Shown one piece after another: positions 17,026-59,129 of a stretch of DNA of 64,000 bases (position 1 is its first letter; every line of letters starts with the position of its first letter). The DNA is from Sphagnum magellanicum (lineage: Eukaryota > Streptophyta > Sphagnopsida > Sphagnales > Sphagnaceae), in contig CM038908.1 of assembly GCA_021904315.1 (NCBI GenBank), positions 10,250,501 to 10,314,500 of the forward strand, written 5' to 3'. A program made the translations under genes and the position numbers. Below the pieces are notes generated by a model. That model saw only the letters and a program-made list of their open reading frames with translations, was not told where the DNA came from and did not search any database.

Positions 17026-17089
17026 ACATCAAGTGGAGCCCTCACCTTGAAGGTAAATGTTTTTTTTCTTGTTTTTTTTTTCTTGCTTC

Positions 17090-18157: not shown

Positions 18158-18496
18158 ATGCACATTCAAATGAAATCGAGGAATTGTGCAAGTGGCATTA
18201 GAAATGTTATGGAAGAAGGAGGTGTAGAGGTTGGGGTGATTAGACAACAAGTAGAAGATGCGGTTGCATTGGCTCCAAATGGGAATATTGAAGAGGGAAT
18301 CCAAGCTAATGTTGAAGTTGGGGAAACCTCTACTATTGTAGATGTTTGTAAAATTGAAGTTGAGTTACAAAGGATTATTGACATGATAGAAGACAAAGAA
18401 ATTTTTGTTCCTGGGCAAAAAAATGCAAATGGAAATGTTGATCCTCATGTTCAAATTGATGAAGGTGAAATATTATACCTTACTTATTATAATTAA
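18158..18496 (+). other. Open frame of 112 codons, unrecognised
   Basis: This plus-strand frame follows the palindromic array. It has balanced, protein-like composition, with Glu/Val/Asn-rich stretches and few low-complexity runs, unlike the surrounding AT-rich DNA. I recognise no domain. Another open stretch at 18908-19449 follows in the same strand, so both may be remnants of one transposon-encoded or host gene. No splice structure could be established. Confidence 0.3.
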
Positions 18497-21250: not shown

Positions 21251-24200
21251 ATTGGTCCATTAAACGATTCTTACCATTCATGAATTTGAAAATGTCTTTC
21301 AATTATATTTAATGTTTGCTTAAAAAATTTAACATAAAATAATGATTAAAATATTATATGTATAAGAATGAAAAAAATGAATAAATCCACACATTAATTA
21401 ATTAAGGATATCAATTTTTGATATTTTATAAAATAAATTTTACATAGAGGTAAAAAAATACATTGACTAAACGTACATGATATTAGGTACTTATGTTTCA
21501 AAATTCAATAAAAACCTTGATTCCTAAACTTAATCCTAAACCTTGGTTGAAAGAAGTCAAGGTTTTACTAAAACATTTTTTTTATGTTCCAAGAAAAAAA
21601 AGAACAACAAAGAGGAAGATTTTGTTGATGCTAAGGTTGATGAAAGATGCCTATGGCTTGCCTTGCAATATTGATAAATGATACAATACATTGTTGTGTT
21701 GCATGAAATTCTAACTGCATTTTGGAGGTAGCATAGTTCAATAATGCAAGAGGTCCTAACTCTACAACGAGGAGATAACGAGGGAGCATCTAATGTTTAT
21801 TCTTATTAAAATGATTGCTTTGATGTTCATATATTTGATGAATTTATTTTTGAAAAGGCAATCCCTAAAAGTTTATCAAGCTAAAATCTGAGGTAATAAT
21901 TTGACTATATTCAATTAGGGCAAGATGATGACATCATTGAATCAAAGGTATCTAATAAGCAAAATCCACCTGGAGCTGGGATGCATGAAATTGGAACTTG
22001 GGCACATTCACCCAACGTCCAAAATGATCCTAGTACTAGTCTTTGATGATAACAAACAAATATAACCAGATGGGGTAACACATAGATTAATTACATGAAG
22101 GACATGATTTCTAGTAGCCATTTGACCAACTACCCAATGCCCATGTCTTCTCTTGGAGAATCTACTATTTTTTTTATCAAAACATTGATTTGATGAACTG
22201 GGTGGTGAGCATTTTAAAATAGTTCCATTCACATCATAATCATTATTGTGCACCACGAGAGTTGGAGGATTCAACATCACAACATCATCATGCCTAATGT
22301 AGAAGTAACTTAATCACAATAATTGTAGTGTTTAACTTTTTGGTGGATTCAATTTGCACAAGGACTTGCACGATTGAGTGATGTTCAGCTTCTCAACATG
22401 TTAAGAACATTACATAACAACTTGGCCCTCACAAAGTTTTTGAATCCACACAAACTCTAGCATGGCTTTTAAGAGCTTATGAACATTTTCATACTCAATT
22501 ATTTGAAGGTTTCTAGGAAGCTTTCAAGAGCAAACCTTCCTCTTTGAACAAACAACAACTCGAACACTAACTCCTTGTAATCAACTATCATCTTTAGAAC
22601 AATATGGAAGTTCATTATATTGTTGTTGTTACTCTATGTTGTTGCAATGATAGTGGTGTGGTGGGAGATGGAAAATGTACCTCCTTCACCCTATGATTTA
22701 TTAGAGCATTCCCATGCTCTTTTAGATCACATTCTGATTTTCCACCGCAAATTTTTTTTGGGCTTGTTCAATGTGTAAACGCCCATCCAAGTGCTTGCAT
22801 ATGGGTGCTTGGAAGAATTATTTGAAGTTGTCTATATTGTTGTCCCCAAATCAAGCATTTGTTTACAACATTGCTATTACACTTCATCATCATCTAGTTT
22901 TTAAAAACTCCACCTTGAATATCTTGTCAATTTGATGGGTAGAGAATCTCCAGTAGACTGGAGAGTAGGCAATTTATTTCTTCCTATTTGCTTGCCAGTC
23001 AAAAAAAACATGATAGTTGTGTGTCTATTGTGTAGTTAATGTGGGACATTACTTAATGTGGAAGGGCTAAAGGTTACATCTAGTATAAATTATAAATTTT
23101 CATGACCAGTATTTTGTGACAAAATTCCAAAACTTCAAATTAGAAATAACAACTTACATAATTTATATATTGGTTTCATGGTGCACTATTTTCACTTTTC
23201 ATTTTGAAATTTCACAATTGTACCTGAAGAATTTGACTCACAACTCACAACCACCTTTGATGTAAGGGATGCATGAAAATGGAAACAAAACTATCACTAG
23301 GAAATTATTTCAGATCTAACTTTTTGTAAGTTGATAGTATTTTAGTTTATAATCATCATAAATGCAAGGATTTAAATAGTGGATCCTAGGTAAAATCATG
23401 TTGCATCCATTACAAGATGATTACATACCATAATTCAGTTGCTACTTTCCAAGCATTTGGAGCACAAATTTTAAACAACTAGAATTGGAAGAAATTTCAA
23501 GAATCTAAAAGCCTCATTTGAAGAATGCACCTCTTAAGAATGCCCCACCTTCCTCCTTTATCAAATGTTTAATTAAAATTTCTACCAAATTAAAATAATT
23601 ATGCAAATATTATATCTTTACAAATGAAAATATATATAATTTCAACTAAGTATATCATCATTTAGTACATTGTAAATTAAGATCTACATAATATTTAGTA
23701 ATTTATATTTCAAATTTCAATTACAATGTTTCAATTTACATAGAAATAATATTCAATCATGTGCATTAATAAAATATACAATGTCAATAACTTATCTTTT
23801 GGAATTTTTTATTCTCATTAAAAATAAATTTAGAAAAAAATTTACACTATACATAACCGTGGGTTTATATAGTTTAAATTTAATATATATTCTTAATCAA
23901 TTCTTATCATATTTAAAATAAAAAAGAAGACATTTATATGCATTAAAATGAATCAACAATATAATTCCATAATATCATTACTTACATATAATGTACTACT
24001 CGAAATGTTATAAATAATAATATATTTACACCAATATTTAAGCCAATATTATACATCATTAAAAAAAATTTACATGAGTACTTATGTTATATCTTTATAA
24101 AATGTAAAATATTACCAACCTATTATATAATTATTTTAGGCTATAAATTATTTATTATATGTCCAATTTTATTTTATTTATTTCAATCATACATAGGATT

Positions 24201-24479: not shown

Positions 24480-26770
24480 ATAAACCCTTGTACCATCAAT
24501 ATGACCAATTTTGCATTACGTTCATTTATATATATGTTAAATCATATTGTAAAGTGAAAAAATAATTTTTAAAACATGAATTTCATTATATATTGGCAAG
24601 GAATGAAATATTTAAAAAATATTTTTATGTTTCATGGTGAATGCAAATGTCCCATGATGATGCAAGTATTACATTTAAACTCCATAACTTTGTTCAAGTC
24701 CTTCTACCATCAATGTGAAGAACTTTGCAACACCTTCATTTATTTAAATCAATATGTAGGGCATGTTATATTGAACATTGATAAATACTTTTAAAAATAT
24801 CCTTTTGTTTCATGGTTTAAAACATTATCATAATATGATGCAAGTACTACTTTCCTTCTAGGTTTTGGTATGTCTACATTAGGCCTCCAAGTTTGAAAAT
24901 ATATGTTATGGAGCTCAATGTATTTTTGGATAAGTTATAAGGGGTATTGTGTAGTTTGAACATGAGCAATACCCTTCCAATAGTGTAGACCCATGGTTTT
25001 TGATTATTAAATACCCTAATGATAGTATTAGTTCCTTGGAGGTTTTGGTAGGGCTATGCAATACCCCTCCATGTGTCAAAAGATACATTATGGAGCTCAA
25101 TGTATTTATAGGATACCTTGAGAAGGGTAATGCATGTTCATTGAATATTCCTTGCCATAAGCAATACCCCTTTGATAGTTTAGATTAAAATAATTTAGCC
25201 CATGGTTTTTACTAAATACCTTAAACATGGTATTATTTGCTTGTAGGTTTTGGTACGGCTATGCAATACCCCTCCGCAATTCAAGTTATAAAGCCCAATG
25301 TATTTCTAGGATAACCTAGGGGTATTGCAAGTGTATTGTGTAGTTTTGAAGATGAACAATACTCTTCCAATAGTGTAGACCCATGGTGTTTAATTACTAA
25401 ATACCTTAATGAGGGTACTAGTTTCCTTGTAGGTTTTGGTAGGGCTATGCAATACCCTTCCATGTGTCAAAAGATATGTTATGGGGCCTAATGTATTTTG
25501 GGATACCTTAAGAGGGGTAATGCATGTTCATTGAGTCTTTTTGGGCATGAATAATACCTTTCTAATAGCCCAAACCAAAATAATTCAACCCATGGTGTTT
25601 ACAATGTAGCCCACTGAAGGTATTGCATCCTCATTGGTAGGGCTATGTAATATTCCTCCAAGTTTCAAAAGATATGTTATGGAGCCCAATGTATTTACGG
25701 GATACCTTAAGAGGGGTAATGCATGTTCATTGAATCTTTTTGGGCATGAACACCACCCTTCTAATAACTTAGACCAAAATAATTTAGCCCATGGTGTTTA
25801 CAGTGTAGCCCATTGAGGGTAATACATCCCTTCTAAGTTTTGGTAGGACTATGCAATACTCTTCCAAGTTTCAAAAGATAAGTTATGGAGCCCAAGGTAT
25901 TTCTAGGATACCCTACAAGGGGTACTACATGTGTATTAAATAGTTTTGGGTATGAGCAATACCCTTACACGTGTCAAAAGATATATTATGAAGCCCAATG
26001 TATTTCTAGGATACTTTGAGAGGGGTATTGAATGTTCATTGAGTCTTTTTGGGCATGAACAATACCCCTTTAATGGCCTAGACCAAAATAATTCAGCCCA
26101 TGGCTTTTACAATGTAGCCTAATGAGGGTAATGCATCCCTTCTAGGTTTTGGTAGGGCTATGCAATACTCCTCCAAGTTTCAAAAGATATGTTATAGAGC
26201 TTAATGTATTTTTGGGATACCATGCACGGGGTATTTTCAAACGTATTGAGTAGTTTTGGGCATGAGCAATACCCCTCTGATACCCTAAACCAAAATAATT
26301 CAACCCATGGTATTTATAATGTAGCACAATGAAGGTATTGAAATTGTTTTAAGTTTTGGTAGGGCTATGCATTACCCCTTCACGTGTCAAAAGATATGTT
26401 ATGGAGCTTAATGTATTTATGGGATACCTTGATAAGGGTATTATCTTGTGGCCCAATGAGGGTATTGCAATGTAACCCAATGAAGGTATTACAATTTAAC
26501 CCAATGAGGGTATTGCATTCCTTCTAGGTTTTGATAGGGCTATGCAATATCCCTTGAATTGTCGAAAGATATGATATGGAGCCCAAACTATTTCAGAGGT
26601 ACCTAGAATGGGGTATTGCACATTCATTGAGTATTTTGCTTTATGAACCTGAGTACAACATGCATTAAATGCGTCTAAGTTGAATTGGAGTTTTGTATTG
26701 CTTTGATTATCCACTTGGCTTGCAATACCCCCTTGGAAAACACTCTTTAAACACAACTTGCAATACCTTT
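24480..26770 (+). repeat. Right arm of the inverted satellite pair (about 9 units)
   Basis: Roughly nine units of about 180-210 bp carry the mark TTTTGGTAGGGCTATGCAAT, near 24859, 25041, 25243, 25430, 25633, 25833, 26143, 26350 and 26525. Each also has GTGTCAAAAGATATGTTATG and a GGGCATGAGCAATACCC-like piece. The orientation is opposite to the left arm at 20165-21250. Frames of 60-86 codons found here are accidental, as they recur at the repeat period. Confidence 0.9.
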
Positions 26771-41570: not shown

Positions 41571-44438
41571 TCTAAACAAAAGGAAAACAAAAGATAAGTA
41601 CCAAGTTTTCTTAGTAGTTGTTGTTGATGTTGTTAGTACTTGAAGATTTTTATTGTTGTTCATGCTCCTCATGTTGTTGTCGCCATTGTTTTTCAACTAA
41701 TTTGGTAACTACATGTGTTAAATGATGATGATGATGAGGAGGAGGAGATGGAAGATTCACAACCTTTCCTAAATTCATCATTTCCTACAAAACATGATTT
41801 GTAGTAACGTATCCATAATTTATAACATCTAGAGGGTGGTGGTGATCCATTGGTGCGAAAGAAATCATGGGTATTACTAAAACAGTGTTGACAAATTGGT
41901 GAGGAAAATTACAAACCTTTCAAACCCCATGTAATAACAACATTTGGCAATGACCAAAGACACTAGGACAAACAAGGTTTCAATAAACACAAAGAAGCCA
42001 ATGACATTGTTGTCCAAACTAGCAACAATATGAGTTTGCAACAACTTGGGATTTGTTCATAATTGTCTTGTTCGAAGGACATGAGGAATGGGTTTTCCAT
42101 GAGTTAATAATTGATGATCATTTAACCTTAAATTTTCGTTGTGGTCAAAAACAAGAGAGCCAAGATTAGGGTTGATGGCTACTTTTTTATGATTTTCAAA
42201 TTAGGGTTTTTTTGGCTTTCAATGAAAAGCTAGAATTATTTTTACAGTTTAGGGTTGTGTGTTTCTATAGGTGCATTTGGGTTTTCTTATTGAACTTTGT
42301 ATCGAACTTATAATCCTGGATTGTAACCTTTAGTTTAAATTGTGATCCCCACCATAGGCCTTTGGCTAATTTGCAAGCCCTTCTTTAGTCTTGGGCTAAT
42401 ATGTGACCTTTTGATGATGTAAATTCTTCACCTTTTGGTTGATTTTGCCTTTTTCCCTTTTGAAGGTGTAGGACCCTGCTTTGGGGGTTTTTTTTAATGG
42501 GGCTTCTCATTCAATGTGACATCTCGTGCTCTAGCTATGGAACCTTTTTCTTGCAATGTAGTATGGTTAATCAATAAAGGCATTACTAGGCATTTCAAAT
42601 TATTTCCTTGCTTAACGAACAACATCCTTTTAATTATTTTCTAGCCCTTTTTTCCTTTGCCTTCAACTAAAGCTTGGGTTTTGGCTTTAAACCCCCTTGG
42701 AACTTTCCATTTGGGTTTTCCTCCTCCTTGTTTGTATGCATGCATCTCTTCAGCTTTGAGGTGAAAAGTACATTTATCTTTTTGATTTCCCTTTGATCGT
42801 TTGGCTCGCGACTCATTTAATGTGGCTTCTTGGCATCTACTATTGATATTCCTACAATGGTGTCTTTTCCTCCCCCTTCATGGTGGTGCAATTGATCATA
42901 GGGAGACTAGGATATGCTTATGACTATATTTAAGGCACAATTGGGACGAGATTCAAATGGAACATGTTTTTTGGATGCAAGCACTTGCAATAGATCTCTT
43001 TCCCCATTTTGATCCCCCTTGGTAGACACCTTTTCTTTAGGTGCCTTTTTGCTTTTAGTCTTGCCCCTATTATGTTGGTTGGGAGGGATCTTGCTTTAGG
43101 ATGTGTTGGGGAATATGGCCGTGTTACTAAGGTTCTTACCCCCCTTGCCCTAGCCCTAGCCCTAGCCTCTTGTTAGTGCTTTGCAAATCTTTCACCTTTT
43201 GAATTTGTCTTTTCTTTGCTTGGACTCCTTGCTGGATTTTCAACTCAACTCAAATTTGGAGTTTTCCTTGGATTCCTTTAAATTAATTTTCATTCAATCA
43301 TTCCATCTTTTAGATGGTGGTCTTCTGGGTATGGTTTTCAAGCATTTTCAAGACCTTTTTTACTTCAAGGATCAATAAGTGGCTTCACACAACTTTTACA
43401 AGTCAGTTCCCATGTTGTAAAAGGTCATGTCATAGGGTTTAGTGTTTGAGCTTTTGGCAATGCCATGTTTTTGGCTTTGGTTAAACCTTTTGAAGGCATT
43501 CAACTAATTACAAGGGGTGAAGTCCTATATTAGTTGGTGAATAGACATTTATGTTTGTAGTTTCATGACATTTTTTACTCACTTGTCACTTCATTAATTC
43601 GATGTGGTAGTTAAGGATGGGTGAAAGGTTTTGGTTCATGGTTTTCAAGTTGTTTTAAATATCCATCATGATTAGGTGGTGTAGTAGGTGGATGTCACAA
43701 ATGCCTTCAACATCATCTTTAAGATAACCATCTTCTATGAGGTTTGCGTGATAAGAGTCTAATTATTTCAACTTTTCCCTTTTGTATCAGTCCTTTTATG
43801 CCTAGCAAATTCCCCCCATGTTTAACCACCACTTCCCTTTGGGAGATTTGTCCATCATCCATTCTTTAGAAGGCATGTGCCAAGGCAATGTATTCGTTAA
43901 TGCCTTTTTTGTGTTGGCTTACTTTTGTGCACGATGATGTTTTGTGGGGTTTTTTTCCCTTTTGTATTTTCCTTTTCTTATTGATGACATTCACATCATT
44001 GGTTCAGCTTCTAGCTTTCCTCTTTTTTTACCATTTAATTTCTTAGTGGGCTTTTGTGGGACTTGTGGTCTAGCCCAAGGGGGACACTTAGTGTAAATTT
44101 TAAGATTTACATGTGTCAAATGACCATTTTTAAGGGGGGTATTAGAATTGTCTAATCTAAATTTTTATCACCCTATTACCATCTAATTTTCTAATATATA
44201 TGTAATAAATTCACCCTATATTAATTATAATCCATTATTCTAGATTATTACATACCTTATATTATAATTAAATTGATTATTTGGATAAAATCTACCTTAT
44301 AAAATTTTACACAATAATCAATATATTGCACCCTATATTTTTATTCACATATTTTTTACTTTTTTTTACAAATGTCCCCTCAAGTGGTTTAGCTTCACAA
44401 GTGGTCATGCAGGCTTTAAAAAAACTTTTAGGCCTAGG
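41571..44438 (-). other. Broken coding-like region on the minus strand, unknown
   Basis: Between about 44100 and 42450 the minus strand reads as long, lysine-rich, protein-like stretches interrupted by stops and frame changes, for example KTKSKKAPKEKVSTKGDQNG near 43070-43010. I recognise no domain. The sequence AAGGGGGGTATTAG at 44133-44146 looks like a retroelement polypurine tract, which would belong to a plus-strand element. Most likely decayed transposon coding sequence. Confidence 0.35.
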
Positions 44439-44760
44439 TTGTCAAGAGTTTTTGTTTAACTATTTAGTTAGGTCGAAGGTAGTTAGGCTAAGCTGGGTTA
44501 GTTAGTTTGTCCTAAACTAATTTGAATGTGAACACGGTTCATAATATTTAGTTTTGGGATATAATCCCATGGAATGCGATCTCAAATCACTTTTGGTGAT
44601 TTGAAATTCCAAACATAATTGCTTCAGGTTTTTGCAAGTTTTGTGTTATGCATAAATTTCTTGTTTTGCCAAGGTTTTTATGTTTATGGTTTTTCTTTTT
44701 TTATGTTTGGACTTGGATTCTTGTGTGTTTGCAAATGAATTTCATTTTGAATCACCAAAA
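44439..44760 (+). repeat. Direct repeat copy 1, flanking the retrotransposon
   Basis: About 320 bp, starting TGTCAAGAGTTTTTG and including GGGATATAATCCCATGGAAT, match 56452-56773 in the same orientation at high similarity. The two copies are 12 kb apart and lie on opposite sides of the Ty3/gypsy coding region, so they may be parts of its LTRs. The similarity stops at GTTTCATTTTG/ATTTCATTTTG in both. I found no primer-binding site after this copy, so the LTR reading stays tentative. Confidence 0.6.
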
Positions 44761-46994
44761 ATGTGATCTAGTTTTGGTTAGTGGAAGAAAACTAGATTTC
44801 ATTTGTCTGTTTTAGCATTATTGTGTAAGTGGTTTATTTGGTTTTTGGTAGTGCTGGGTGGTGTGTGTTAGCTTTGAGGGTTGTGGTTATGTTTGCAACT
44901 CCTTGGAGGTTTGAACTCCAAAGGGGGCATGGACCCTAGAGTTAGTGTTTTTCATATTTTTCCCACTCTTCTCCTTTCCCTCTTTTTTTTTTCTCTCTTT
45001 CTCTTTGGGTTCTACGGCATGTGTGCACAGAAGTGATACTGCAATAGCAACACGAGTTGGGAGCTACATGCTAGGAGTTATAGGTTGTAAGGTGTTTTGT
45101 GAGGAACAAATTGCTTTAGCTCATTGAAGTAGAAGAGGAAGAAGAAAGGGAAGAAAAAAAAAGGAGGGGCTGGGGCAACGAATTGCTATAGCACGTTGAA
45201 ATAAAAGAAAAAAAAAAGGATGGGCAGGGGTAGTGAGCTATTGTAGCCTATTGAAATAGAATGAAAAAAAATAGGAGAAGAAGAAGGGGAAAAAAATAAA
45301 AAGGAAAAGTAGGGGCGGGGGAGTTGTAATTCGTTTGTGGTTGTAGTGCTTGTAGTAAGCCGTGCAAGCTTGCCCACCATTTCTGTCAAGCTCAAGCTCA
45401 ACCAAGGTGCAAATCAAATTGAGCTTGATTTGGCAAGTTCACGTGGTTCAAACAAAGGCTCAAGGGGACAAAAGGGGGTTAGTCCAATCTAAACCTACCC
45501 CAAGTCAATTTTGTTAATTTTAAAATTAATTAATTAGTTTTCTTTTTCTTTTTCCTTTTCATCCACGTGGAAGAATTTTCATCCATCATTTGGGTGTATG
45601 ATTTTTCATCTAGGTTTTTCATCCTTTTATTTATTTTTTATTTTTTCACCCAATGTTTGGATGAAAAGTTTTCATCCATTCGTGATTTTTGGCAAGCCAT
45701 AACTTCCACATATGGGCTCATATTTCGGCAATTTTCACGTCATCAAATTCGTCTTAGTTAGCTCTATGCAACAATGGGTAGCCAGTTTTGGAGACTATGA
45801 TTTTGGGAGTCCAAAGACTAATACTCCTATTTTGGGGATTTATTTCACATAAAATCCCAAAAATTGATATCTCCCACATAGGACACTTCATTTGGGTGTT
45901 GTTTTCACCATTGCTCTTGTGGTGAAGGAAATTATCATCCTAGGAAGTTTTAGCTAGATTAGCAAAAGGTCATTTCTCAACCCTTTTTTTGGTGGTGTGG
46001 CACGAGGGGTGCAAGGAGGTGTAAGGTGCATAAAAGAGCATGGGACATAGGAGCAACACACAGTGATTACCTATAAGTATTTTTAATACTCATAGATGGT
46101 GGAGTGGTGTGCCATTCAACCACATCATCAATTTTTGAATTTTTACATATCAATTGTCGTAAGTCTTTGAACGAAATTTATAGGGGTGGAAGCTTGTCTA
46201 TGTTGAAGAGTTCCTCTCCTTTGTGTTATGGGTTTTTACACCTATTTCCTATGTCTGTGTTTGGGATTATCAATTATTTATCAAGGGGTAGGGAAATCTG
46301 TCAGGTTGTGTGCCTTTGGGCTACATCACAAGGTGATCTCAAGCTTGTGTGATGATTTCCTGTAGATTTGTGCATACTATTCAATAAGAAACTATAGGTA
46401 AAAGGCTATGAGCCCCCCCATGTGTGCTGGTTGTAGCATGTAGTGAGCCCATAGGTTGTAGTTGGAATGGTTAATGGCCAAGTATGGGACAAGGCTACCA
46501 CCCAATTCTAATTACTAAATAGGTCCTACTTGACCCTTGATTTGCACATACATAGATATTAGGGTTTAATGGCGGGTAGGTTGTACCTAGTGTTTATATT
46601 TGTTATTGGGTGAGATCCGATTGATGACCGATAGACCCATTGTTGTAGTGAAATTGAGGTAATGATTAATGAAATTGCATTTGCTGTTTCTATGGTTGTG
46701 AAGGCCCTAAGTGCGTGTTTGGCCTCATAGAACATTTTTATGGATGAAAGTGCCCCAACGATATAGGTGCAGTAACCCTAATTACCATTTTGGTTGGGGG
46801 ATTTTAGGGTTAGGGAAAGCCGCAACAAGTAAGCATCCCTATAGGATTAGTTGAGCTGATACATGTGCAACAATCTTGGCACAATGAGGTTCCAATTTTA
46901 TAGGATTTCAAGGTTATAAGATTTAGGGTTATAGGTTCCAAGGTTACAAGTTTAGGGTTTTTAAGGAAACCCGGATTAGGGTTAAGGTTTCATC
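44761..46994. other. Leader or LTR-like DNA before the retrotransposon gag
   Basis: No intact gene. It contains a purine-rich tandem repeat at 45108-45290 and repeated TTTCATCC pieces at 45557-45680. If copy 1 of the direct repeat marks an LTR, this stretch is the rest of that LTR plus the untranslated leader. No tRNA-complementary primer-binding site could be identified. Confidence 0.35.
45108..45290 (+). repeat. Tandem repeat of about 65 bp, three diverged copies
   Basis: Three successive units share the pattern: AATTGCTATAGCACGTTGAA, then an AG-rich tract of GAAGAAAAAA type, then GGGGCTGGGGCA or GGGCAGGGGTAG. The units begin near 45108, 45179 and 45235. No coding role. Confidence 0.7.
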
Positions 46995-48200
46995 ATGGAT
47001 AGGGGTCGAGATTTGGATTTTCGAGACAAGCTTGCCAAAGGATTTACTAGGCAAGAGGTGTGGTTCCAACCACCTACCCCACCTACATTATCACCTAAAG
47101 GAGATTCCTTAGATTTTGAAGCAGAACTACCACTGGTAGTGTCAATACCACTTGTGTGGGACATGGAAGACATGTATGGTGCCTCCAAGGGGCCCTGTTG
47201 ACTTTTAGGCATGGTCAACATCGTTGAATTAGATGATTTCATCCAAGAGTTTGATACCTAGTGTGATATGCAGGAGTTGTGAAATTTGCAACAATTTACA
47301 CCTTTCTTGATATGGAAGGGTTTATTCTAACATCTGGAGCGACTGCCCATGGATGATTATCACGAGTTTTGTGATGCCCATGAGGTTGATATTGAGGAGT
47401 GGTGCCAGTACTAGTCACCAAATGATTTTTCCATCACCAAAGGTCAACTGGTTGCATCGACACTTATCCCATCGACCACTATCATAGGTGTTGGTGTGGG
47501 TCCTTCCATTCCTGAAGGTGGTGGTAATAGTCCTATTGTTAGGGGATGGGTTCTTATTTTCAGCCCTATCACCAAGTTTTTCGAGGAGCTTCACATTAAT
47601 TACTAGGCTGTGAAAATAGAGAAACTCCACACAATGCAGGAGTTTTAGCATTGTCCCCATGAGAGTTTGTGAGAGGCATACACCTAGATGTGAAGGTTGA
47701 TTAATGTGACCAAGGGGGTTATAGAGGCCCATGCGATCCAATTTTGGTATGGGATCGTGGAAAAGGATCTAAAGCAATGAGTATAAAACATAATTTTCAC
47801 ACAACCTACACAACCCACTTTGGCCTTGGTTTTTCAGGTTTTTGAGCACATTGAACTCAACATGATGGAGGAGAAGGTTGTCACCCTAAAGTTTAGTAGG
47901 GAAACCTTAAAACCTTCTCTCACCTTATCAACTTAACAAGCACATGGTTAGGCTTTGAGGATTGCACCATCAAAAGGCAAGGGGCTAAAATAAGAATTCG
48001 AAAGGGGGTTTTCATTTTATCCAACATAACATGGGGGAAGAGATAAGTGTTGGAGGTGTGGTGGGCCCCATCAGAAGAAGGATTGCCCTAATCATCTTCA
48101 AGTGACCACCTCTAGCCCTAATCCCAGCCAACCTTGCTCCCATTGCAAGGCATATGGCCATGATGTAGACCATTATTTTATGCTTCATCTAAAGATGCAG
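46995..48200 (+). pseudogene. gag remnant with CCHC zinc knuckle
   Basis: Coding relics on the plus strand include a capsid-like stretch at about 47570-47770, then CWRCGGPHQKKDCPN near 48050, a C-x2-C-x4-H-x4-C nucleic-acid-binding knuckle, followed by CSHCKAYGHDVDH, a second knuckle with its last ligand altered. Several in-frame stops (for example after IEKLHTMQEF) and frameshifts break it. The beginning at 46995 is simply the first Met of an open frame and may not be the true gag start. Confidence 0.75.
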
Positions 48201-49934
48201 CAAGGTTCATCCCAAATGGGAAATGTCCCAAGGTTTTGGCAAAAGCCAAAATGTGAAAAGTGTGGCCAATAAGGGGCCGACCACCAATTCAACTCCAAAC
48301 CAGCCCAATGCCATGGAGGCATGGTTTGCACGTTTAGAGGCATTGGTGATGAGTATGGCATCCAACATGGTGACATAAGTGAAACCCACAGCACCCGTGC
48401 CAGATGATTATTTAATTTAAGCTTTTGACCTTGGATTTTTCTGTGTAGTTGGATTCTTAGAAGCATTAAATCCAAATGATATCGAATTAGGTATTCTCGA
48501 CGTTCATGTTTTAAGGGCAGTTGGTGACAAAACCCTAGTTAGGGTTTTGACAACTGCACCACATGCTAGGGCAAGTGTTCGAATATAGGAACTATGAGGT
48601 GTTAATGAGATATTGCATCTTTAGCGTGGGGAGGCTTAACTGTTAGGTTCATCTACCATAGTCCTTCATGTTGATCGACACATTTCACATCTCATGGACA
48701 CATCCAACCCGAATAAGGGATCAGTTACAACCACTAGATTGTTTAGTTCCACTTTAGGAACTCAAGCGCCCAATAATGTGTTGGTGTGCCAAACACCATT
48801 GTTTTCTGCTACAACTTTGGTGATGCCTGATTTTTGGATGGTAACCACATTATGTGATGGGTTAGATACACCAAGGATGGTGGCTACACCTGTTGAAGAT
48901 TCCCAATAGGTTTTATTTAACCATCCATCAGTTGGTTAGATACTTGTCAACATATTTGTCAACCATTTACATGTTGACCTACCTATTGGTCAACCCATTA
49001 GGGATTATTGTTGGTTGATCACTTGTTAGCCAACCACTCGTTGGCCAACCACTTGTTATGGTGGTACCACCTTGGCATGCTGCAACAATTAAACTCCAAG
49101 ACCTTTTAGCACACCCACCTATCAATCAAGTAGGGGTTCTACCAAGTATAGTGGTGGTGCGAAATCAAGAAGGTGTTTTTCAAATGAGGGGGGCTTCAAG
49201 ATGATATTATCAACCCTAGAGGATTTTATTAGATTTAGGAACTCAACTTTTGATGTTGGGCAAAACAGCAACGAAGGGTTTAGGGTTGATCAATGCTAAT
49301 TTGGAGCCATGCCCGTGCCATATTTCGACATCAATGTGCATGTCAAAAAGAATTTGGGGGATAACCAAGCATGAGGTCGTCATTTAGGTTAATCCCATCA
49401 AACCTACAAATTATACCATGGTTCGTGTTAAAGCAATGGTTATGCAAGCTACATCGCATGATGTGCTGGTTCAAGGGAAATTGTGTATCACTTAAAAGTT
49501 ACCTTGGATTTTTGGGAGATTGCTTATTATCAACTAGGATGGCAAACAATAGATAGCCATAAGGCTTTTTTGCCAATTACCTTCATTGGGGGGCACGTAA
49601 GGGAAACCCAACAATTAAACAATATTAGCAGGATTTTCAGGGCTTTCCCATGGGGTTGATTTGTTGGAGGGCAATATCCATGCTATGGATAGTCCCCCTA
49701 CTCATGAGCTAGAGATGTTAGGTGCCCATGTTGGGCCATTCATTTAGGGTTCGCCATGTGATCCACCACCATCATGGGGAACATTGTTACAGCTTCAGGC
49801 ATAAGCCAAACATTACATTCATTAGGCTTGGCACATTCTACTATCACCAAGTTCACAGTTACATGTAAACCCATGGACTGCCTGGTTTACACCCTTTGGA
49901 TTTTAAGGTTATTTGGTGGCATATTCTTGAGGAT
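48201..49934 (+). pseudogene. Linker between gag and methyltransferase, possible protease remnant
   Basis: Protein-like plus-strand frames continue (for example 48694-48909 and 49371-49556) without a motif I can name securely. A retroviral-type aspartic protease would be expected here but the D-T/S-G motif was not found; it may be lost by decay. From about 49750 the frame joins that of the methyltransferase domain. Confidence 0.4.
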
Positions 49935-50906
49935 GGGATTTGCTTGTTGGAACTTTTTGGAGGCATTAGTTTTGACCTTATAACAGTCCTTCAATTCGGC
50001 ATAAACATTCACCAATACTATTATATGGAAAAGGATCCTTAAGCCCAACAAGCCTCCATCTGCCATCTTATGATGGTACAACAATAACATCATGGGTTGT
50101 TGCCTACATTAGCAATCCAAGGTTACCAACGTGCCTTACGAAACAACATTACATTGTTGGGGGTGCATGATTTGGATAGGATCAAACCAATGGACTTGGT
50201 CATACTAAGATGGCCATGTTAGGGTTTATCACAAGTTGGCACATGTCAAGGACTTTCAAACCCCAAATCAGGGTTATTTTGGGAGTTGATTTGGGTGCTA
50301 CAATATTTGCAAACCACTCAACTACAATTATGTGCATATGTGTCGGAGAATGTCCCACCATCGAGAGATTTTCAGCTAGCTTTAGCAGAAGCATGGCAAT
50401 GGATTCGGCCTTGGATTAAGGAGCCAATGCAAGTGGATGCTACAACAATTAGTTCATGTGCCCATTGCTTTCGGTGGCTATGGACTAACCTAGCTCCACC
50501 AAAGGTATTTTAGAATGCATATTGGATCATTCTGAGGTCACCCACATGCTTGGTGGATGATATTTTGGATTTAGGATGACATTCTTCTACCGTTCAACAT
50601 GATGACCAACCACCTTTGGCTATGGTCAAGAGGGTTGGCCTACCACAAGTAACCTTACCTACTTTTTTGAGTTTTTCACAATTTCACGCATTTTGAGATG
50701 GTGGTCTAAGCATGATTTGGGATGCCAACTCATCTAGGATGGAGGAGCCCAATGTTGATGGGTGAGAACAACCTATGGGATTTCGCACTAGCATCATAGC
50801 AATGCGAGGGAATTTTGAAGGTGTTCATCAACGGATATTGGGACAGGTCATCAATCTTACTTGTTTCACATGGATCTTTAGCCTTTTTTGGGCTAAACAG
50901 GTTTGA
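49935..50906 (+). pseudogene. Cytosine-5 DNA methyltransferase-like domain inside the retrotransposon
   Basis: One reading frame, with no indel, carries the C5-methyltransferase motifs in canonical order: motif I LLELFGGI (49944-49967, cofactor binding), acidic YYYMEKDP (motif II-like), motif IV WPC-stop (50211-50222, catalytic Cys kept, the following Gln now TAG), motif VI ENV (50346-50354), motif VIII-like CFRWLWTNLAP near 50466, motif IX-like EQPMGF near 50770, motif X-like ILGQVINL near 50840. Between VIII and IX lies a variable stretch suitable for target recognition. About seven stops interrupt it: TAA twice, TAG twice and TGA three times. It sits between gag and RT. The enzyme would transfer a methyl group from S-adenosylmethionine to cytosine in DNA. 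Host DNMT families do not sit in such a setting, so capture by the retroelement is the straightforward reading. Not functional now. Confidence 0.88.
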
Positions 50907-51289
50907 TTTGCATAGTCTTTCCCACCCACCCACCCTTCTTCTACTTTTGTTGCACCTACATCCAAGTTAGCTATGTTGGTGCAAGGGGGGGGACATCCTT
51001 GGGCATTTATGGGATCACAAATTTATGGGTAATGGGAAGGAGGTTTTTAATGTGGGGGTGCTAGGGCATTATGGTGTTATACCACCTTTTGCATAACAAT
51101 CATAGGTTTTGCCTTCAACTTCAAATGCTGGGGATATTTCGTCATTTCAACCCAAGGTACAAATAACCACAGAGACATGGGAGCTAGATATTGGTCCCAT
51201 GGTTACAAGAAATGAGGTGTAGGAAGTACAACAATTACTGAAGGATTATGAAAGTTGTTTTGCTTTCAATTTGAAGGAATTGGGACAAT

Positions 51290-51960
51290 TGTGAGGACAT
51301 GAAGTCCAAATTGTATTAGAGGATGATAATCCTATTTTTAGACAACCTTATAGGTTGAGTGAGATGGAGAGGGCCTTGATTCAGGCTCAGACAACATAAT
51401 TCTTAGATGTAGGTTTGGTGGAACTATCAAAGGTGAGTATGCCTCAACCGTAGTGATGCCAACCAAGAAAGATATTTTTGGCAATTGGACAAAGTGGCAT
51501 GTGTGTGGGGATTATCACCCAGTCAACAAGTGCATGCGTTCGGACAAGTATGCCATGCCCAACCAAAAGAAATCTTTGATGCCCGTGGTCAAGCTAAGGT
51601 TTTAAGTACCTTGGATTTGAGGTTTGGCTACCATTAATTGTCATTGAAGGAGGGCAACAGGGTCAAAACAACATTTTGGGGAATCAATCCTCAAGGGAAG
51701 GATTATTTATACCAATGGCAATTTTTACCATTTGGTTTGAAAAATGCACCTATAGAATTTCAGAGGGTGAAGGATTGGGTGTTGGCAAGGTTTAATTTTG
51801 CCAAATGCTACATTGATGACATTATCATTTTTAGTTTGACATCAGAAGATCAATGGCATTAAATGCAGAGGTACTTGGAAGATTTAAGGATCATAACCTT
51901 AAGCTTCATCCATGCAAGTGCCAATTTTTCTAGATGGATTGAAGGTACAAAAAGCCAAGG
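51290..51960 (+). pseudogene. Ty3/gypsy reverse transcriptase remnant
   Basis: Recognisable blocks: FRQPYRLSEMERALIQAQ, the palm entry VCGDYHPVNKCMRSDKYAMP near 51510, QFLPFGLKNAPIEFQRV, and the catalytic YIDD at 51809-51820. A frameshift lies between the MRSDKYAMP block and the longest open piece (51638-51862). The YIDD aspartates are intact, though stops and frameshifts prevent a product. Confidence 0.9.
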
Positions 51961-52129
51961 TTGAGGCCATTTCATAGGTACCCCAACTGACAAATGTCAA
52001 CCGATTACGAATCTTTTAGGCTTGTGTAATTATTACCAAAGATTTGTTAAAGGATTTAGTACCATTGCTAAACCTTTAATTACGTTGATGTAGATTGACC
52101 AGAATATGTTTGGGGTGAGGAGTAAGAAT

Positions 52130-52674
52130 AGACATTTCATGAGTTGAAAGCCCAACTTTCTTCAGCCCCCATCTTGAAGCAACCCATTTAGGGACATCTT
52201 TTTTAGTTGCATATTGATTGGAGTACCTTAGGGCTGGGAGCCGTGCTTACTAGTTAGATGATGATGGTTGAAAATTTGTGGTGGCATATGCCAATCAGTC
52301 CAACAATAAAACAAAAGCCAAATATAATTCATATGAAAGGGAGTGCCTCCATGTTGTTTCAGTAGTTTTTTCTTTCATGTGCTATCTATATGGTAGCCCA
52401 TTTACTTTGGTTACCAATCACTAGCCCCTAAAGTTTTATAAGATCGACTCACATGAAAGTTGGTTAGATGGGCACTTTTTTTTAGGAATATGATTTCAAT
52501 ATTGTTCATAGGGTTGGTAACGTTAATCAAGATGCTACTGGGTTGAGTCGAAACCCAAGTTCAAGTGAAGAGGACACCATAAGTGCCAGGTGGCATGGAA
52601 AGGTGGATTTGGAGGCAATACCAAGATGTCATGCCTTTGCATACTTGTGTATTTTATTGGGATGTTTTAGGGAT
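52130..52674 (+). pseudogene. RNase H remnant
   Basis: It follows RT. LHIDWSTLGLGAVLT near 52207 carries the first catalytic Asp of retroelement RNase H; further blocks continue to NQDATGLSRNPSSSEEDT near 52530-52570, which marks the end of the domain in this family. Stops and a frameshift interrupt it. The domain-to-integrase linker is cut at 52674 by the CACTA-like insertion. Confidence 0.8.
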
Positions 52675-54594
52675 CACTATGAAAAATCGTGTCCATCAAA
52701 ACCACATTACCCTACAACTAAAATTCAAAAACATATTCACATACAGTTGTTATGTAATTATCCCTTGGGTATTATAACTATTATGCAATTATCTCCTTAA
52801 AACTACGGTGCATTAATAAATAAAATGTCACATTAGAAAATCAGTTAGTTATATTATAATTGCAAATGAGTTGAAAATGGATCTTCTATACAATAATTTA
52901 TACACATTGTACATATATATGTAGTCAACCATATTTAATTTTTTTAGGAGTTGCATTGTAGTTGCATGTGGTAACTACCTTAGAACTATTATAAATGTGT
53001 CACTAAAGTTTCAACTATGTTCCAACTAATGTATAATATACATACATGTGATCATGCCATGTGTTCACATTTCCACCACCCATTATGGGATACATTTGCA
53101 ATTAGTTTTCAATTATAATTCCCATTTATACAATTAGCATGGCCATTAGTGTACTGCTACTAAAGTACTGATATTCAACTATGTTATAATTATAATACAA
53201 CTATTTATAACTTATTAAGGATACATATTCATTAGTTATTTACATTTTCATCACATGTGTTTCATTTTGAGTGATTTAAAATGTTATGGGAACACTACCT
53301 CAAGCTCTAGAAATCATCTTTCAAGTGCAAAGGAAATGAGTAATGAAAAATAACAAGAAGAGAAATAAGCTTTCCAACTTACAAAAGACATTTTTTTCCT
53401 TTTTTTTCTTTTTAGACCCCTCTTACTTTCAAACCTCATAACTTTCTTATTTCTTATTCATTTTAAATGATTTAAAATGTTATAGGAGTGCCACTTGAAG
53501 TTCTAAAAATCATCTTGGAACTTTCATAACAATAAAACAACATATAAGGATTTTTTTTGGTGTTTGGGAACTAGCCTTTGTAGCATTTGGTGGTTTTTTT
53601 TTGAATTTCTAACCCCCCTTTATTTTGAAAGACCATAACTTTCTCAATCCTATTTCATTTTTGACGATTTTTAGTGCACTAGATGTGCCAATAGGTGGGA
53701 TTTAAGTTTTTTTCAAACTTAAAAAATAATGGAACCCTCCCTTTGGATCTGGCTTGCTTTGAGCGCTTAAGTGTTATAGTTGCAATTCAATTTGCAATTA
53801 ATGAACAATTAAAAGATTTAACCCATATGGTTTGTTTTCAAATCCCATGTTACAAACTATATAAAGAAAGTTTATTTTCTTGTAATCTCACATTAAAATA
53901 CATGTGCCATTTTGGGATGAGTTTAAAAAGGCTTAACCTAAAGGCAAATCATAATTTTTATAAAAAAAATTCATGGCTATTTTTTAGTGCACTTAGTTTT
54001 GTGTTTTTCTAATTATTTACTTACCTAAGTAAGTAAGTAGGTCCTACTTTTTAACCTACCTATGTAGGTAGGTAGGTAGGTCCTAGGTAAATATGTAAGT
54101 ATATAGGTCTTAAGACCTACCTACCTATGGTTATGTACGACCTACTTAGCTACTAAAATAATAATAATAATAATATTTTTCAAAATACAATTAATATGCC
54201 ATGTGGCAAAAAAATTTATTGTGCCACATGTCACAATTTCGAACCATCATTAATAATCATAATGGATGATGGAGATCAATATTTCGAAAAACAATTTAAG
54301 TCCAAAAATCTTCATTATGCCACATGTCAAATTTTAATAGATGTATGATAATTAATGACATCATGTGTGTAGTTATAATGGAATTGCATAGTAGTTGAAA
54401 TTGAGTTGTTTTGACTAAGTTGCAATTGAGTTGCAATGAGTTGCACTATATATATGGTGAGTTGCAACTCTATAATTCATGCAATTTGTTTGTTAACACT
54501 CACTGCATAAAAATACAATGAGTTGCAAGTGTCCTTTGCAATTCAAAAATTGGGTTGCAAAACTAATTGCAAAACACCTTTTTTTCTCATAATG
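52675..54594. mobile_element. CACTA-like non-autonomous transposon, 1,920 bp, nested in the retrotransposon
   Basis: The left end begins CACTATGAAAAATCGTGTCC; the right end, reverse-complemented, begins CATTATGAGAAAAAAAGGTG, so the ends are imperfect inverted repeats. The triplet GAT lies on both sides (52672-52674 and 54595-54597), the 3-bp duplication typical of CACTA/EnSpm. Taking out the element plus one GAT rejoins RNase H and integrase linker codons in frame. The interior is AT-rich with TTGCAACT-type motifs and a palindromic CCTACCTATGTAGGTAGG tract at about 54045-54120. No transposase. A related older copy lies at 38432-41570. The insertion is younger than the retrotransposon. Confidence 0.85.
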
Positions 54595-55480
54595 GATGTG
54601 CCCCAAGGCAACATGGGTAATGAGAATTCCCATAATGATGATGATGATGAACCAGAGGGCAATGGTGCCTTGGAAATCCATTTAGATTTACATGTTATGG
54701 CATATCTATACGCAACTGAGGTTCTAGTGGGATTAACACCCAAGGAGCAAAATCAAGTTGTCCATAAGGCAAAATGGTCCCAAGGGAAGGTAATTCCTTA
54801 TTATGTGCGTGGACAAATGGGTGAATGTAGGTAGTACCATGCCTAGAGCAACGTGAGGGCCTTATACTACATGCTCATGAAGAGTTGGGCCATTTTGGGG
54901 TTCGATGGACCTATAGTTTGCTCCATGCATAATATTAGTGGCATGGGATGCAACTACAAGTTCAACAATTTGTTTTTTGGTATGTGGTGTGTGATCAAGT
55001 ATGGGCATCATTCAACACACCAACACCCTAACTACAACCCTTACTAATTATGGGGTTAGGTTATCAATGGAACTTGGATTTTGTTGGCCCATTGACTTTG
55101 ACACCTCAACATAACCAATATGTTTTAGTTATGATCGAACACTTCTCCAAATGGTTGGAATTGGTGCCATTGCCAGATTGTAATAGTGAAGGAGTTGCAT
55201 ATGCATTTTTGGACAAAATGTTTAATAGGTTTGGTGCTCTAACCAAAATTATCACCAACCAAGGTACGGAATCTTGAAGGGATTTCTAGGATTTGTGTGA
55301 AAAGGCATTGATAGATCATTGGACTATTTCACAAGATCATCATGAGGCCAATGGGTTGGCCAAATGAATGGTGTAGACGGTGAAACAAAGATTGTGGAAA
55401 TATGGCCTTCAAAAAGGCCACACTTGAGACTAAGACTTATAGTTACCATGGTTGGCCATGGGATATAAATTCACATGTCA
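54595..55480 (+). pseudogene. Integrase remnant with mutated active site
   Basis: The N-terminal linker is followed by the zinc-binding region (HEELGHFGV near 54878) in which the first of the two cysteines is now Tyr (WYVVCD). The catalytic core starts WNLDFVGPLT near 55070 with the first Asp kept. In IITNQGTES the second catalytic Asp is Asn, and the expected catalytic Glu after ANGLA is Lys, followed by a stop. Both changes are G-to-A on this strand. The longest open piece is 55050-55277. Inactive. Confidence 0.88.
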
Positions 55481-55599
55481 GCTTCATTAGCATCTTTTTC
55501 GTTGTATTTTTTGTTATTCAGTTGAAATCTCGAGCTACTAGCCTCCATTCGATGTGATGTTATGATTGTGATTAGTCTTGATGATCTTTTTGTGTGGAT

Positions 55600-56130
55600 T
55601 TAGGCATGTGAGTAGTGGGGTTGTGTTATGCAAGCGTGTGATGCCTATGGCTATGGAAAATTTGGCAATTGTTTAACACTAAGATACTTTTCAGTATGCC
55701 ACAATTTGTGGAAGAGGTTATCAACCTTGGGTTTGTAAGTTTGAACCAAGGGATTATGTTTATTTGTAGCAGATAGCTCCCACCATATTGGATGTGATTG
55801 CAAGTCGTGTGATTTTGCATGTTTGAAAGGTTTTACCTTTCAAAGTATTGTTGTTTGAAGGACGAGATGGTTAAACATGGAAGGACCATGTGTGTAATTG
55901 TGCACCATGTCATTTTCCCAATGTGGATGGCTAAATTGACCCATCCTTGGCCATTATATTTGTTGGTTTACGGTGTATGTTGTGTGGGCAGTCCACCAGA
56001 ACTACCATTATGTTAATTTGTGATTGGTGTTAAAAAGGATGGCACATGGCATGTTTGATGCCATCCTTGGACTAAGTACCAGTTGACAAATTGGTTTTGC
56101 CCTTGGCGCACCCAATAGACATGGTTCCCA
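55600..56130 (+). pseudogene. C-terminal retroelement region with PHD-type zinc finger
   Basis: The polyprotein continues past integrase with blocks near 55760-55965 (PCHFPNVDG and IDPSLA among them), then a Cys/His cluster at 55974-56109: C-x2-C (55974, 55983), C-x2-C (56019, 56028), then GWH-x2-C (His 56043, Cys 56052), L-x-P, then W-F-C-P in the +1 frame (56092-56103). That is the C4-H-C3 spacing of a PHD finger; the last Cys position reads CGC (Arg). Stops at 56031 and a one-base frameshift break it. PHD fingers usually read histone H3 tails, so in a retroelement this could guide integration. The function is inferred. Confidence 0.75.
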
Positions 56131-56352
56131 CGATCACGTAATATAATTAGTTTAAAGTTTTGTCCCATGATTTTTCACATTTGGTTGAGGATTTGAAGGA
56201 TTCCACATAGGTGACTAATGATGGGGCTCACATTTGCACCTAGCCTAATGATCATTTTACCTTGGAATTGAAGGATTCATCCATGGTGGATTACCTAGGT
56301 ATTTCTATAGTGTTATTTGGTTTAGGGGGACTTCAACCCCAGATAGGGGGGC

Positions 56353-56451
56353 AGTTTGGATGAGGTGTACCATTCAGGGTGTTGGTGTGTTATTTGTTGT
56401 GAATGTGATGACAGTGATAATGGTAGGCACCAACATTGGTGCGCATGACAA
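56353..56451 (+). repeat. 98-bp direct repeat, unit A copy 1
   Basis: This segment begins TTTGGATGAGGTGTACC and ends GCGCATGACAA. It recurs at 56771-56869 in the same orientation with few differences. The two copies flank the 320-bp block at 56452-56770, giving an A-B-A arrangement at the 3' edge of the retrotransposon. Confidence 0.8.
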
Positions 56452-56773
56452 CTGTCAAAAGTTTTAACTTAACTACCTAGTTAAGTCAGAGGTAGTTAGG
56501 CTAAATTAGGTTAGTTAGATTAGTTAATTTGTCCTTAACTGGTTTGAGTGTGAACCCAGTTCATGATATTTAGTTTTGGGATATAATCCCATGGAATGTG
56601 ATCTCAAATCACGTTTGGTGATTTGAAATTCTAGACATAGTTGTTTCATGTCTTTTTAGGTTTTTGTGTTATGCATGGATTTCTTGTTTTTGCAAGGTTT
56701 TTATGTTTCTAGTTTTTCTTTTTATGTTTGAACTTGGATTCCTATGTTTTTATAGATAAGTTTCATTTTGGTT
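56452..56773 (+). repeat. Direct repeat copy 2 (block B)
   Basis: This matches 44439-44760, the block on the other side of the retrotransposon, over about 320 bp. It may be an LTR remnant. It is bounded here on both sides by copies of unit A, so a local duplication or template jump has altered the 3' edge. Confidence 0.65.
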
Positions 56774-56869
56774 TGGATGAAATGTACCATTCAGGGTGTT
56801 GGTGTGTTATTTGTTTTGAGTGCAATGATAGCGATAATGGTAGGCACCGACATTGGTGTGCATGACAAG
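56771..56869 (+). repeat. 98-bp direct repeat, unit A copy 2
   Basis: Second copy of unit A (see 56353-56451). It is followed by GTGTTGTTGGGCCCAAGTTA at 56869, where an LTR-like stretch begins with TGTTG. I found no matching copy of that stretch on the 5' side, so it cannot be confirmed as the 3' LTR. Confidence 0.75.
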
Positions 56870-59129
56870 GTGTTGTTGGGCCCAAGTTAACCTAACCCAA
56901 TTTTGATTAAGAAAGGTAGGATGGCTAAGGAAGTTTTGGGGTTAACCAAAACATCTAAGGGGGTTAGGTTAGTGCATATGACCTTATCCCAGTAGGAGTT
57001 GATGGGTGGGTGGCTTGGTTAGAATAAGGGTAGGAGTAGGTTGGCTAGATTAGAATAAGGTTGAATTACTTTATCCTTGTCTAGAATGGCCAAACCTACT
57101 AGATAAGGTTGTTTGAATGGGGGAGTATTCTTTCTGGAAGCTTCTAGCAATTAGGGTTAGGGTAGGAAAGTGACGATGGCATCTCCATGGAGCTATGAGG
57201 AAAAAGAATTGTTACATTGGCCTCTTTTCCATCTTTTTAAGTGCGTGGGACATGAAGGGTATGAGGAGAAAGGAATGATGATGATGGTTATATGGATGGG
57301 AAGCAGGTTTTGGTTACATCATGATCAAAGGGTGAGATAGGTGAGAGATAAATGAGGTTAAAGCATCACGAAGGAGCAAGATTTTCAAGAGGAAGTCAAG
57401 TCAACATATGCTCTAAAGACTGGAGGCAAGATTGTCAAGTGGTGGGGTGGCAATTATTCAAATGGAGGAGCTTCATGAGGGGATAAAAGTAAGTTAGGGT
57501 GGACCAAAGTGGCACGATAGGAGTCCATTTTTGCATAATTTTTAGTGTTATCAAAACTTTCACAATTAATATGTCAACCAAATATCATTTTTTTCCAAGA
57601 ACTATTTCTTGCCCTCCTTTCTTAATACATTATTGAATACTTTGAATGAAAAAAATTACATCAAATTAAAATTTTTGACATTGAAAATGGGATAATGAAT
57701 TATGGGGCTTTAAAAAGCATCTAAGTGCTTATTCCAATTTGTAATCACGTCCCCAATAGTCCCAATAAGAATTTTGTTTTCATTTTAGTCATATCATAAC
57801 ATATTTCTTTTAATATTCCAAGAGTTATGAGTCCATTTAAAATTGTGCATGGGTTGTAACACAAGATGAAACAAAAATTTACAAGTCCCTCAAAGATTAA
57901 AAGATGGTCATTTAGTTTTTATTTTTGCTATTAGCTTCCTATAATTGGTATGTTATAAATATGCATCCATTTTTATAAATTTCATTATCAATTGGAGTTA
58001 GGAGACATTGCCATAATAAGAGGTATTGGATTTCTATTTTGTGACATGCAAAAATGGATAGTGTAGTTTGCTTTTGCTTGAATATAGTGATTGGAGGTGA
58101 ATGGGGGAAGGTCAAAAAGAGGAACCTGGACCTATTAGGTGTGAATGCAAGTTATAGTTCACTTTATGTGTCCCATTGCAATTTTTTGTAGGGTGCAATG
58201 AATCAACATGCCATTAACATGCCATAAAATCATTTATATGCATAATTGGGACTTGGTTTAAGATTTTGAATTTCAATAAAAAATTATCTATATAATTTTG
58301 CACAATAAATGTGCACCCATTATGTAATATTGGACTTTTGAACTAAAAACATATGGATCGTCTCAACCATATGCACTTCAATATGAAATATTCAATATTA
58401 TTTTTTCAAAATATATCTTACATGGACTTAATATTTGATAGATGAAAGAAAAACATACATAGATTTTAAAACTTCATTACAAAAGCTTTAACCAAAATAT
58501 AGTTATGGACTTTTGAATGACCAAAATTTGAACATTATTTTCAAAAGTCTTTATATGAGTCATTTTTTGTTGGATTGATGATTTTTTTCCTTGTAAAATG
58601 TATGTCAAAAAGATGTCTAAGTGTGTATATTTTCACGTGAATTTAATTAGTTCATTAACAAACCCATAGTCCCCCATTTATGTTAATTCAACACCAAAAA
58701 AATGAACTTTTAAGGACATTTTATCTACCAAAAATGAGCCACTTAACCTTGCATCTACCTTGTTGCTGAAGTAAAGAAATAGGAACAGAAAAGTGACATA
58801 GCTGGAAAGTGTTATTGTTGGCCTTAAAGTGAGAAAGTGATGGTCTACCTTCTTGTCAAGGCAAGAGAATCATGAATTGGGGGGCATGTTATCCCACACA
58901 GAGAGTGTGTGAAGGGGCTATTTTGGGCGAGGTAGAAGCTTTGGAGGTGTAGATAATTGTAGATAAGAGATGTGTAGTAAGGGAAGATAATACAAAGGCC
59001 AATTTATGAGATAGCTAAAGCAAGAATTAGGAGTACTTGAAACTAAAAGCAATACATTACAACCTGTTCTTGAAAATGTGAGAATTATTATGTGCAAAGA
59101 CTTGTTGGATTTCTTGATGCTTGTATGAG
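56870..59129. other. Possible LTR-like flank, then unrecognised AT-rich DNA
   Basis: 56870 to about 57530 has moderate GC and repeated GGTTAGGTTAG/GGTTAGAATAAGG pieces, as seen in LTRs. From 57530 to 59129 the DNA is AT-rich with no gene or complete element recognised. Confidence 0.35.

Follow-up and report, generated by a model that had tools for sequence, protein, structure and literature searches.

Plants silence mobile elements by cytosine methylation, so an element that conserves a de novo methyltransferase of its own is a paradox. A stretch of 64,000 nucleotides from the Sphagnum magellanicum genome (the window) raises this question, since a sequence-only reading of it had placed a cytosine-5 DNA methyltransferase domain within a Ty3/gypsy retrotransposon. 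Is the domain genuine, does it belong to the element that surrounds it, and what might an element do with it?

The methyltransferase domain and its element

The remnant of a C5-cytosine methyltransferase domain lies on the plus strand at 49932-50906, where translation gives 325 codons in frame, interrupted by seven internal stops and closed by a terminal one. The frame and coordinates of the sequence-only reading were correct, and so was the canonical motif order that it described: motif I (LLELFGGI), motif IV (WPC, with a stop as the next codon), ENV, and VIII-like, ERE.MGF-like and GQ..NL-like blocks follow one another unrearranged. These motifs line up with those of the other 39 sequences in an alignment of 40, with gaps at single motifs in a few rows; some relatives in that alignment deviate at catalytic motifs, having EC for PC and ENT or ENA for ENV. 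A DRM identity was rejected, since motif I precedes IV, VI and VIII in a single linear frame with no rearranged order.

A match to Pfam family PF00145 had been expected, and this held for relatives but not for the window itself, which scores 17.8 bits (E 0.0025) against a gathering score of 22; four relatives (P0026, P0027, P0029 and P0035) and the contig L081, described below, pass the cut-off at 38-49 bits. Identity rests on these relatives because the window's own Pfam score is weak. The best PDB match for the window domain is DNMT3B (E 0.011). For the open relatives DNMT3 is the closest class by sequence and by fold, with DNMT2 far behind and 4dkj as the best rival fold. A database search with the window domain returned three proteins (E 1.2e-65 to 3.2e-46), which may stem from the same or a near host, and a profile of these three retrieved 36 proteins (E of 1 or less), four of them with precomputed PF00145. 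From these comparisons it is practically certain that the feature is a genuine DNMT3-class domain, beyond chance. The window copy itself is dead, and we infer methylation activity and purpose.

The element was read against an open relative, L081 (CADCWO010000201.1), a 9285-bp contig found with a profile of four open proteins. The same 127 bases stand at both of its ends, which hints at a circular assembly. ORF1 encodes a gag knuckle, protease (PR) and DNMT, and ORF2 encodes reverse transcriptase (RT), RNase H, integrase and a PHD finger, in the same frame with one stop between them; the protease Pfam match (E 8e-4) is under the cut-off. By tblastn the L081 proteins are collinear with the window over PR, DNMT, RT, RNase H and integrase-PHD. 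The DNMT match covers 49893-50900 (37% over 336 residues, E 7e-57) and the integrase-PHD match 54786-56102 (48% over 443 aa, E 3e-109), and a control with the reversed window gave no match to the L081 proteins. L081 is filed in a cyanobacterial MAG although it is a eukaryote-like retrotransposon; it is probably a eukaryotic element from a mixed sample that contaminates the MAG.

The window holds a decayed Ty3/gypsy-type element at 44440-56867, with the methyltransferase between protease and RT. It is bordered by the target-site duplication AGGT (44436-44439 on the left, 56868-56871 on the right) and opens with repeat A1 (44440-44749, plus strand), which starts with TGTC and is 82-85% identical to 56453-56770. 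Two zinc-knuckle-like gag motifs at 48048-48179 (plus strand, frame 46902) were seen by eye, and Pfam gave no zf-CCHC match upstream of the methyltransferase; the neighbours agree with the sequence-only reading, gag knuckle-like motifs on the upstream side and RT, followed by RNase H and integrase, on the downstream side. A remnant of the aspartic protease region lies at 49094-49471 (plus strand; tblastn with L081 ORF1 residues 475-602, E 2e-10). Beyond the methyltransferase, at 51094-51102 on the plus strand, TAACAATCA forms a stop with a CAR-YYA context, which recurs with comparable spacing in other copies. There follow on the same strand an RT remnant with broken frames (51112-52192; PF00078, E 1.1e-13, and tblastn with L081) and an RNase H remnant (52105-52662; PF17917, E 3e-11, and tblastn).

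The collinear tblastn match is then broken by an AT-rich stretch (52663-54785; GC 0.29 over 52680-54560), about 1.9 kb beyond the L081 spacing and probably a later nested insertion, with no clear terminal repeats. The DDE integrase remnant (54786-55900, plus strand, right end approximate) retains an H2C2 finger (PF17921, E 6e-7) and an rve core (PF00665, E 2e-7, 31.6 bits, just under the cut-off of 32.6); by eye it has no intact catalytic triad, and L081 has D-D-x34-E. C-terminal to it is a PHD finger (55974-56078, plus strand; PF00628, E 1.5e-5, 25.3 bits, cut-off 24), found at the same place in L081, L112, L113, P0068 and P0071-P0074. The right end is made up, all on the plus strand, of a polypurine tract (a G-run at 56343-56353) that abuts repeat B1 (56354-56451, 90% identical to B2), of repeat A2 (56453-56770, the counterpart of A1) and of repeat B2 (56771-56867), which ends in GACA. 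The Ty3/gypsy coding order PR-RT-RNaseH-integrase, with a DDE integrase, is present by Pfam and tblastn.

Outside the element, two long ORFs at 7118-10489 on the minus strand encode C2H2 zinc fingers of the plant type (QALGGH) and are probably one host gene. Large imperfect tandem repeats at 20150-21512 and 24844-26646 form mutually inverted blocks, and additional tandem blocks occur at 12538-13471 and 17067-18190.

Copies, relatives and selection

Could a fragment of a host DNMT3 gene have fallen into one decayed gypsy copy by chance or by nested insertion? The window's Pfam score, under the curated cut-off, would fit such an event, but the domain has at least 128 matches in its own genome (439 Mb, 31 contigs), a lower bound with 123 of 1114 candidates scored. 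The matches fall into three sets: window-like (set i), about 40-45% identical to the window protein (set ii) and about 30% identical (set iii). All 26 fetched copies of set i (L082-L106 and L111) carry stops, 5 to 18 each within the matched stretch. Sets ii and iii often have few or none and keep open methyltransferase frames; no internal stop occurs in 15 of the 128 matches listed, one of these being a 66-residue fragment.

The sequence-only reading had looked to intact copies of the same domain order for support, and one exists in the same genome: L112 (set iii, C17) is a single open frame of 2379 aa encoding gag-PR-DNMT-RT-RNaseH-integrase-PHD. The domains of L113 (set ii) follow in the same order within one frame that three stops interrupt, one falling between DNMT and RT. 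The genome holds young copies with open frames, and young copies of sets ii and iii were read at three places. Thirty loci of sets i and ii, the window's own among them, were read with 1.5-kb flanks: 22 have PR upstream, 27 have RT downstream and in 21 the methyltransferase is flanked by both, which bears out the assignment of the domain to a Ty3/gypsy-type element. Relatives that lack the methyltransferase may also exist. L092, on the minus strand, has RT downstream of its methyltransferase; the same 4 kb (G000:C8:13671804-13675760) also includes plus-strand fragments of DNMT and RT from a second element.

A protein search with the L081 domain, which scored the 8000 candidates sharing most words, found 38 proteins with E no higher than 1e-3. 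Those named comprise six from Marchantia polymorpha and one from Calypogeia fissa, both of them liverworts, as well as an algal one from Closterium (P0075, E 6e-13, the match spanning 29% of the query); by name, K. nitens gave no sequence among the database protein matches. PR precedes DNMT in 31 of the 38, and a PHD finger was mapped in five. DNMT is followed by RT in P0060, P0061, P0065 and P0066, of which P0060 and P0065 are from Marchantia, and a second order, RT-RNaseH-DNMT-integrase-PHD, occurs in P0068, P0071 and P0074. Viral contigs yielded no relative with the first alignment as query; with the alignment of open relatives they gave 80 loci (best E 3e-9, mostly about 24-31% identity), which were taken as phage or bacterial cytosine methylases and rejected.

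A tree of 49 rows was restricted to proteins that span 70% or more of the query, leaving out P0002, 13 near-duplicates and own-genome loci under 300 aa. Midpoint-rooted without a host-gene outgroup, it places the window in a clade of 12 own-genome sequences (100/100), nested in a group of 26 that adds liverwort sequences, own-genome set ii and three further proteins (100/98). Taken together, the data suggest a wider streptophyte group that includes these elements, short of proof of descent.

The methyltransferase is under purifying selection. Pooled pN/pS over seven set-iii copies, picked for long open frames and compared in pairs that are not independent, is 0.203 for the methyltransferase and 0.40 for RT; for two set-ii copies (L107 and L109 left out) it is 0.273 for DNMT and 1.1 for RT, the latter on 10 differences only. 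Such selection is likewise at odds with a chance fragment. Since the collinearity spans many copies and species, we regard the chance explanation as already refuted and give it next to no weight.

Split repeats and the stop codon

The repeats do not form a conventional pair. The layout is A-coding-B-A-B in the window and in the C14, C6 and C15 copies. In the window A1 and A2 diverge by a K2P of 0.167 and B1 and B2 by 0.113; the C14 copy has identical B1 and B2 (107/107) and about 195 extra bases in A2, and A1 and A2 agree at 99% in the C6 and C15 copies. The C17 copy (L112) has A1 and B1 and no A2-B2 within the fetched stretch, so its right end is missing. Perfect 4-bp target duplications occur in four of the five insertions (AGGT, TTTC, CAGC and CAAT) and border the A1 start and the B2 end exactly, with terminal TGTC...GACA. 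At the inner B-A junction the sequence is GACAACTGTC in the window (56447-56456, GACA-AC-TGTC) and GACAGCTGTC (GACA-GC-TGTC) in L081 and the C14, C6 and C15 copies.

Judged as a conventional LTR element, the insertions have TG...CA-type ends with a target duplication within 4-6 bp in those four of five, and they have no complete direct repeat at each end, A1 alone standing on the left and B1-A2-B2 on the right; a conventional LTR layout was rejected on account of these split repeats. The split direct repeats are of the DIRS type, and DIRS membership was rejected in turn because Pfam finds an rve integrase and no tyrosine recombinase in the window pieces and in both L081 ORFs. Inspection by eye revealed no canonical tRNA primer site downstream of A1.

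It might be argued that the A-B-A-B ends are an artefact of assembly or local duplication of an ordinary LTR element. An ordinary LTR starting with B would be expected to follow a G-run, as B1 does, and the C17 copy lacks A2-B2. This explanation would nevertheless have to account for four independent insertions with the same ends and perfect duplications, for the second B that appears at 485-546 bp in 20 of the 39 set-iii copies (none listed for the other 19; 40 of 565 candidates scored), and for the DIRS-like repeats published for KnitGypsy-Dnmt3 (PMC5890265). We consider it very improbable. One set-iii copy (G000:C4:3308203-3309411, minus strand) ends in B-A-B-A-B, one A-B unit extra.

The G-run directly before B, present also in L081 and in the C14, C6 and C15 copies, places B in U3 and A in R-U5 in retroviral terms, so that reverse transcription should give B-A-coding-B-A. 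The integrated A-coding-B-A-B would then be a circular permutation of that product: if integrase opened a circle of two repeats at the palindrome GACA-GC-TGTC, the outcome would be A-coding-B-A-B flanked by a 4-bp target duplication.

A recurrent context surrounds the stop that separates methyltransferase from RT: AAG TAG CAA TCA in L081, TAG CAA CTA in the C14 and C18 copies and TAA CAA TCA at 51094 in the window. Of the 24 window-family loci (L083-L106), which are related, non-independent copies counted regardless of reading frame, 14 have TAG/TAA-CAATCA no more than 450 nt past the domain match and 10 lack it. First-order resampling gives an expectation of 0.17, and the upstream side has the pattern in 0 of 24; the distance past the match is 189-237 nt in 11 of the 14. 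We take the CAR-YYA context here to be the leaky-stop context of tobacco mosaic virus, and the stop may accordingly be read through. Leaky stops are not universal in these elements, because L112 has DNMT and RT in one stop-free frame.

Possible functions

The precedent mentioned in the sequence-only reading does exist, in the form of a gypsy element with Dnmt3 in the charophyte alga Klebsormidium nitens and of dinoflagellate retroelement DNMTs (PMC5890265). KnitGypsy-Dnmt3 is described there as having Dnmt3 in the gypsy Pol, DIRS-like repeats and several copies with Ka/Ks under 0.2; a yeast assay showed no methylation and was called inconclusive, and the authors hold it to be an independent acquisition in the algal lineage, with the gypsy and DIRS captures unrelated (de Mendoza et al. 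2018, PMC5890265). Matched against this published description of the K. nitens copies, the window element belongs to the KnitGypsy-Dnmt3 group by architecture, sharing an unrearranged Dnmt3 in gypsy Pol, DIRS-like repeats, multiple copies and purifying selection. It differs in occurring in land plants, in the placing of DNMT after protease and ahead of RT, in many cases with a leaky stop behind it, and in its 4-bp duplications and the PHD finger after the integrase; the term 'PHD' appears 0 times in the main text of PMC5890265. SymbioDIRS-Dnmt3 of Symbiodinium, as described in the same paper, also has Dnmt3 in a retroelement Pol and A-coding-B-A-B repeats, but it has a tyrosine recombinase in place of the DDE integrase and target duplications found here.

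Plant DNMT3 genes are reported in non-flowering land plants, with DUF3444 (Yaari et al. 2019, PMC6453930); they share the catalytic domain type, whereas the window domain is part of a retroelement polyprotein. A 2025 survey places some DNMT3 in retrotransposons ('LTR Copia and DIRS'), citing the streptophyte and dinoflagellate report (PMC12344493). A limited literature search (mosses, ferns, gymnosperms, Marchantia, Sphagnum) found no report of such elements in land plants among the listed titles and openings of abstracts. Apparently new are their occurrence in land plants (Sphagnum, Marchantia and Calypogeia), the PHD finger as a reader, the layout with a leaky stop, and split repeats that go together with target duplications. 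Chromoviruses, the chromodomain gypsy elements, likewise have a histone-reading module C-terminal to the integrase, which is thought to steer integration; the window element has a PHD finger in place of the chromodomain, and a methyltransferase and split repeats in addition.

Our main reading, to which we assign a probability of about 0.6, is that the window contains a KnitGypsy-Dnmt3-like element, inserted long ago and now dead, that encoded gag-PR-DNMT3, a leaky stop and RT-RNaseH-integrase-PHD, with packaging, cDNA methylation, PHD targeting and a circle route as parts of the proposal. Gag-PR-DNMT would be made in bulk, with occasional read-through giving RT-integrase-PHD, and the methyltransferase would be packed with the structural protein into the particle. 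There the enzyme would methylate the element's own double-stranded cDNA before integration, and the insertion would arrive with the host's heterochromatin mark and not as unmethylated foreign DNA. The PHD finger would read the histone H3 tail and steer the integrase to matching chromatin. Pre-integration cDNA methylation with histone-guided integration is the function that we hold likeliest, at somewhat under even odds. A broader version is more tentative still: an ancient streptophyte lineage and not the private event of one alga, integrating by the circle route via the palindrome, having young copies with open frames in bryophytes and pairing a writer (DNMT3) with a reader (PHD), so that every new insertion would carry its own epigenetic address.

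Alternatively, the methyltransferase could restrain its own element, with new copies silenced at once, damage to the host limited and a gain in the long run, one of the possibilities offered by de Mendoza et al. (PMC5890265). The decay of 26 of 26 fetched window-like copies would suit this. CHG o/e is 0.35 in the window element, compared with 0.70 for the remainder of the window and 1.22 for the zinc-finger gene nearby; CpG o/e is 0.25 in the element and as low (0.23) in that gene. The CHG depletion is consistent with long methylation and deamination, but the same depletion is expected from host silencing alone. With young copies of sets ii and iii at three places and the stop-free matches among those listed, restraint would be partial at best, and we think it an unlikely purpose.

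The substrate of the enzyme might instead be host chromatin or element RNA, and not cDNA; the enzyme might, for example, keep the target niche methylated with the aid of the PHD finger. A writer paired with a finger of the H3-tail-reader type would serve such a role, and RNA methylation has been suggested for the SymbioLINE enzyme (PMC5890265). Fold and profile, with DNMT2 far behind, point to the de novo DNA methyltransferases, however, and the leaky-stop layout suggests packaging with Gag; we give this explanation similarly low odds.

In the literature examined, the plant-side case has so far been one charophyte alga. Occurrence in a moss and in Marchantia, a genetic model, makes the purpose of methylation by an element testable. 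Split repeats with a DDE integrase and target duplications would mark an integration route that tools built on ordinary LTR pairs could miss.
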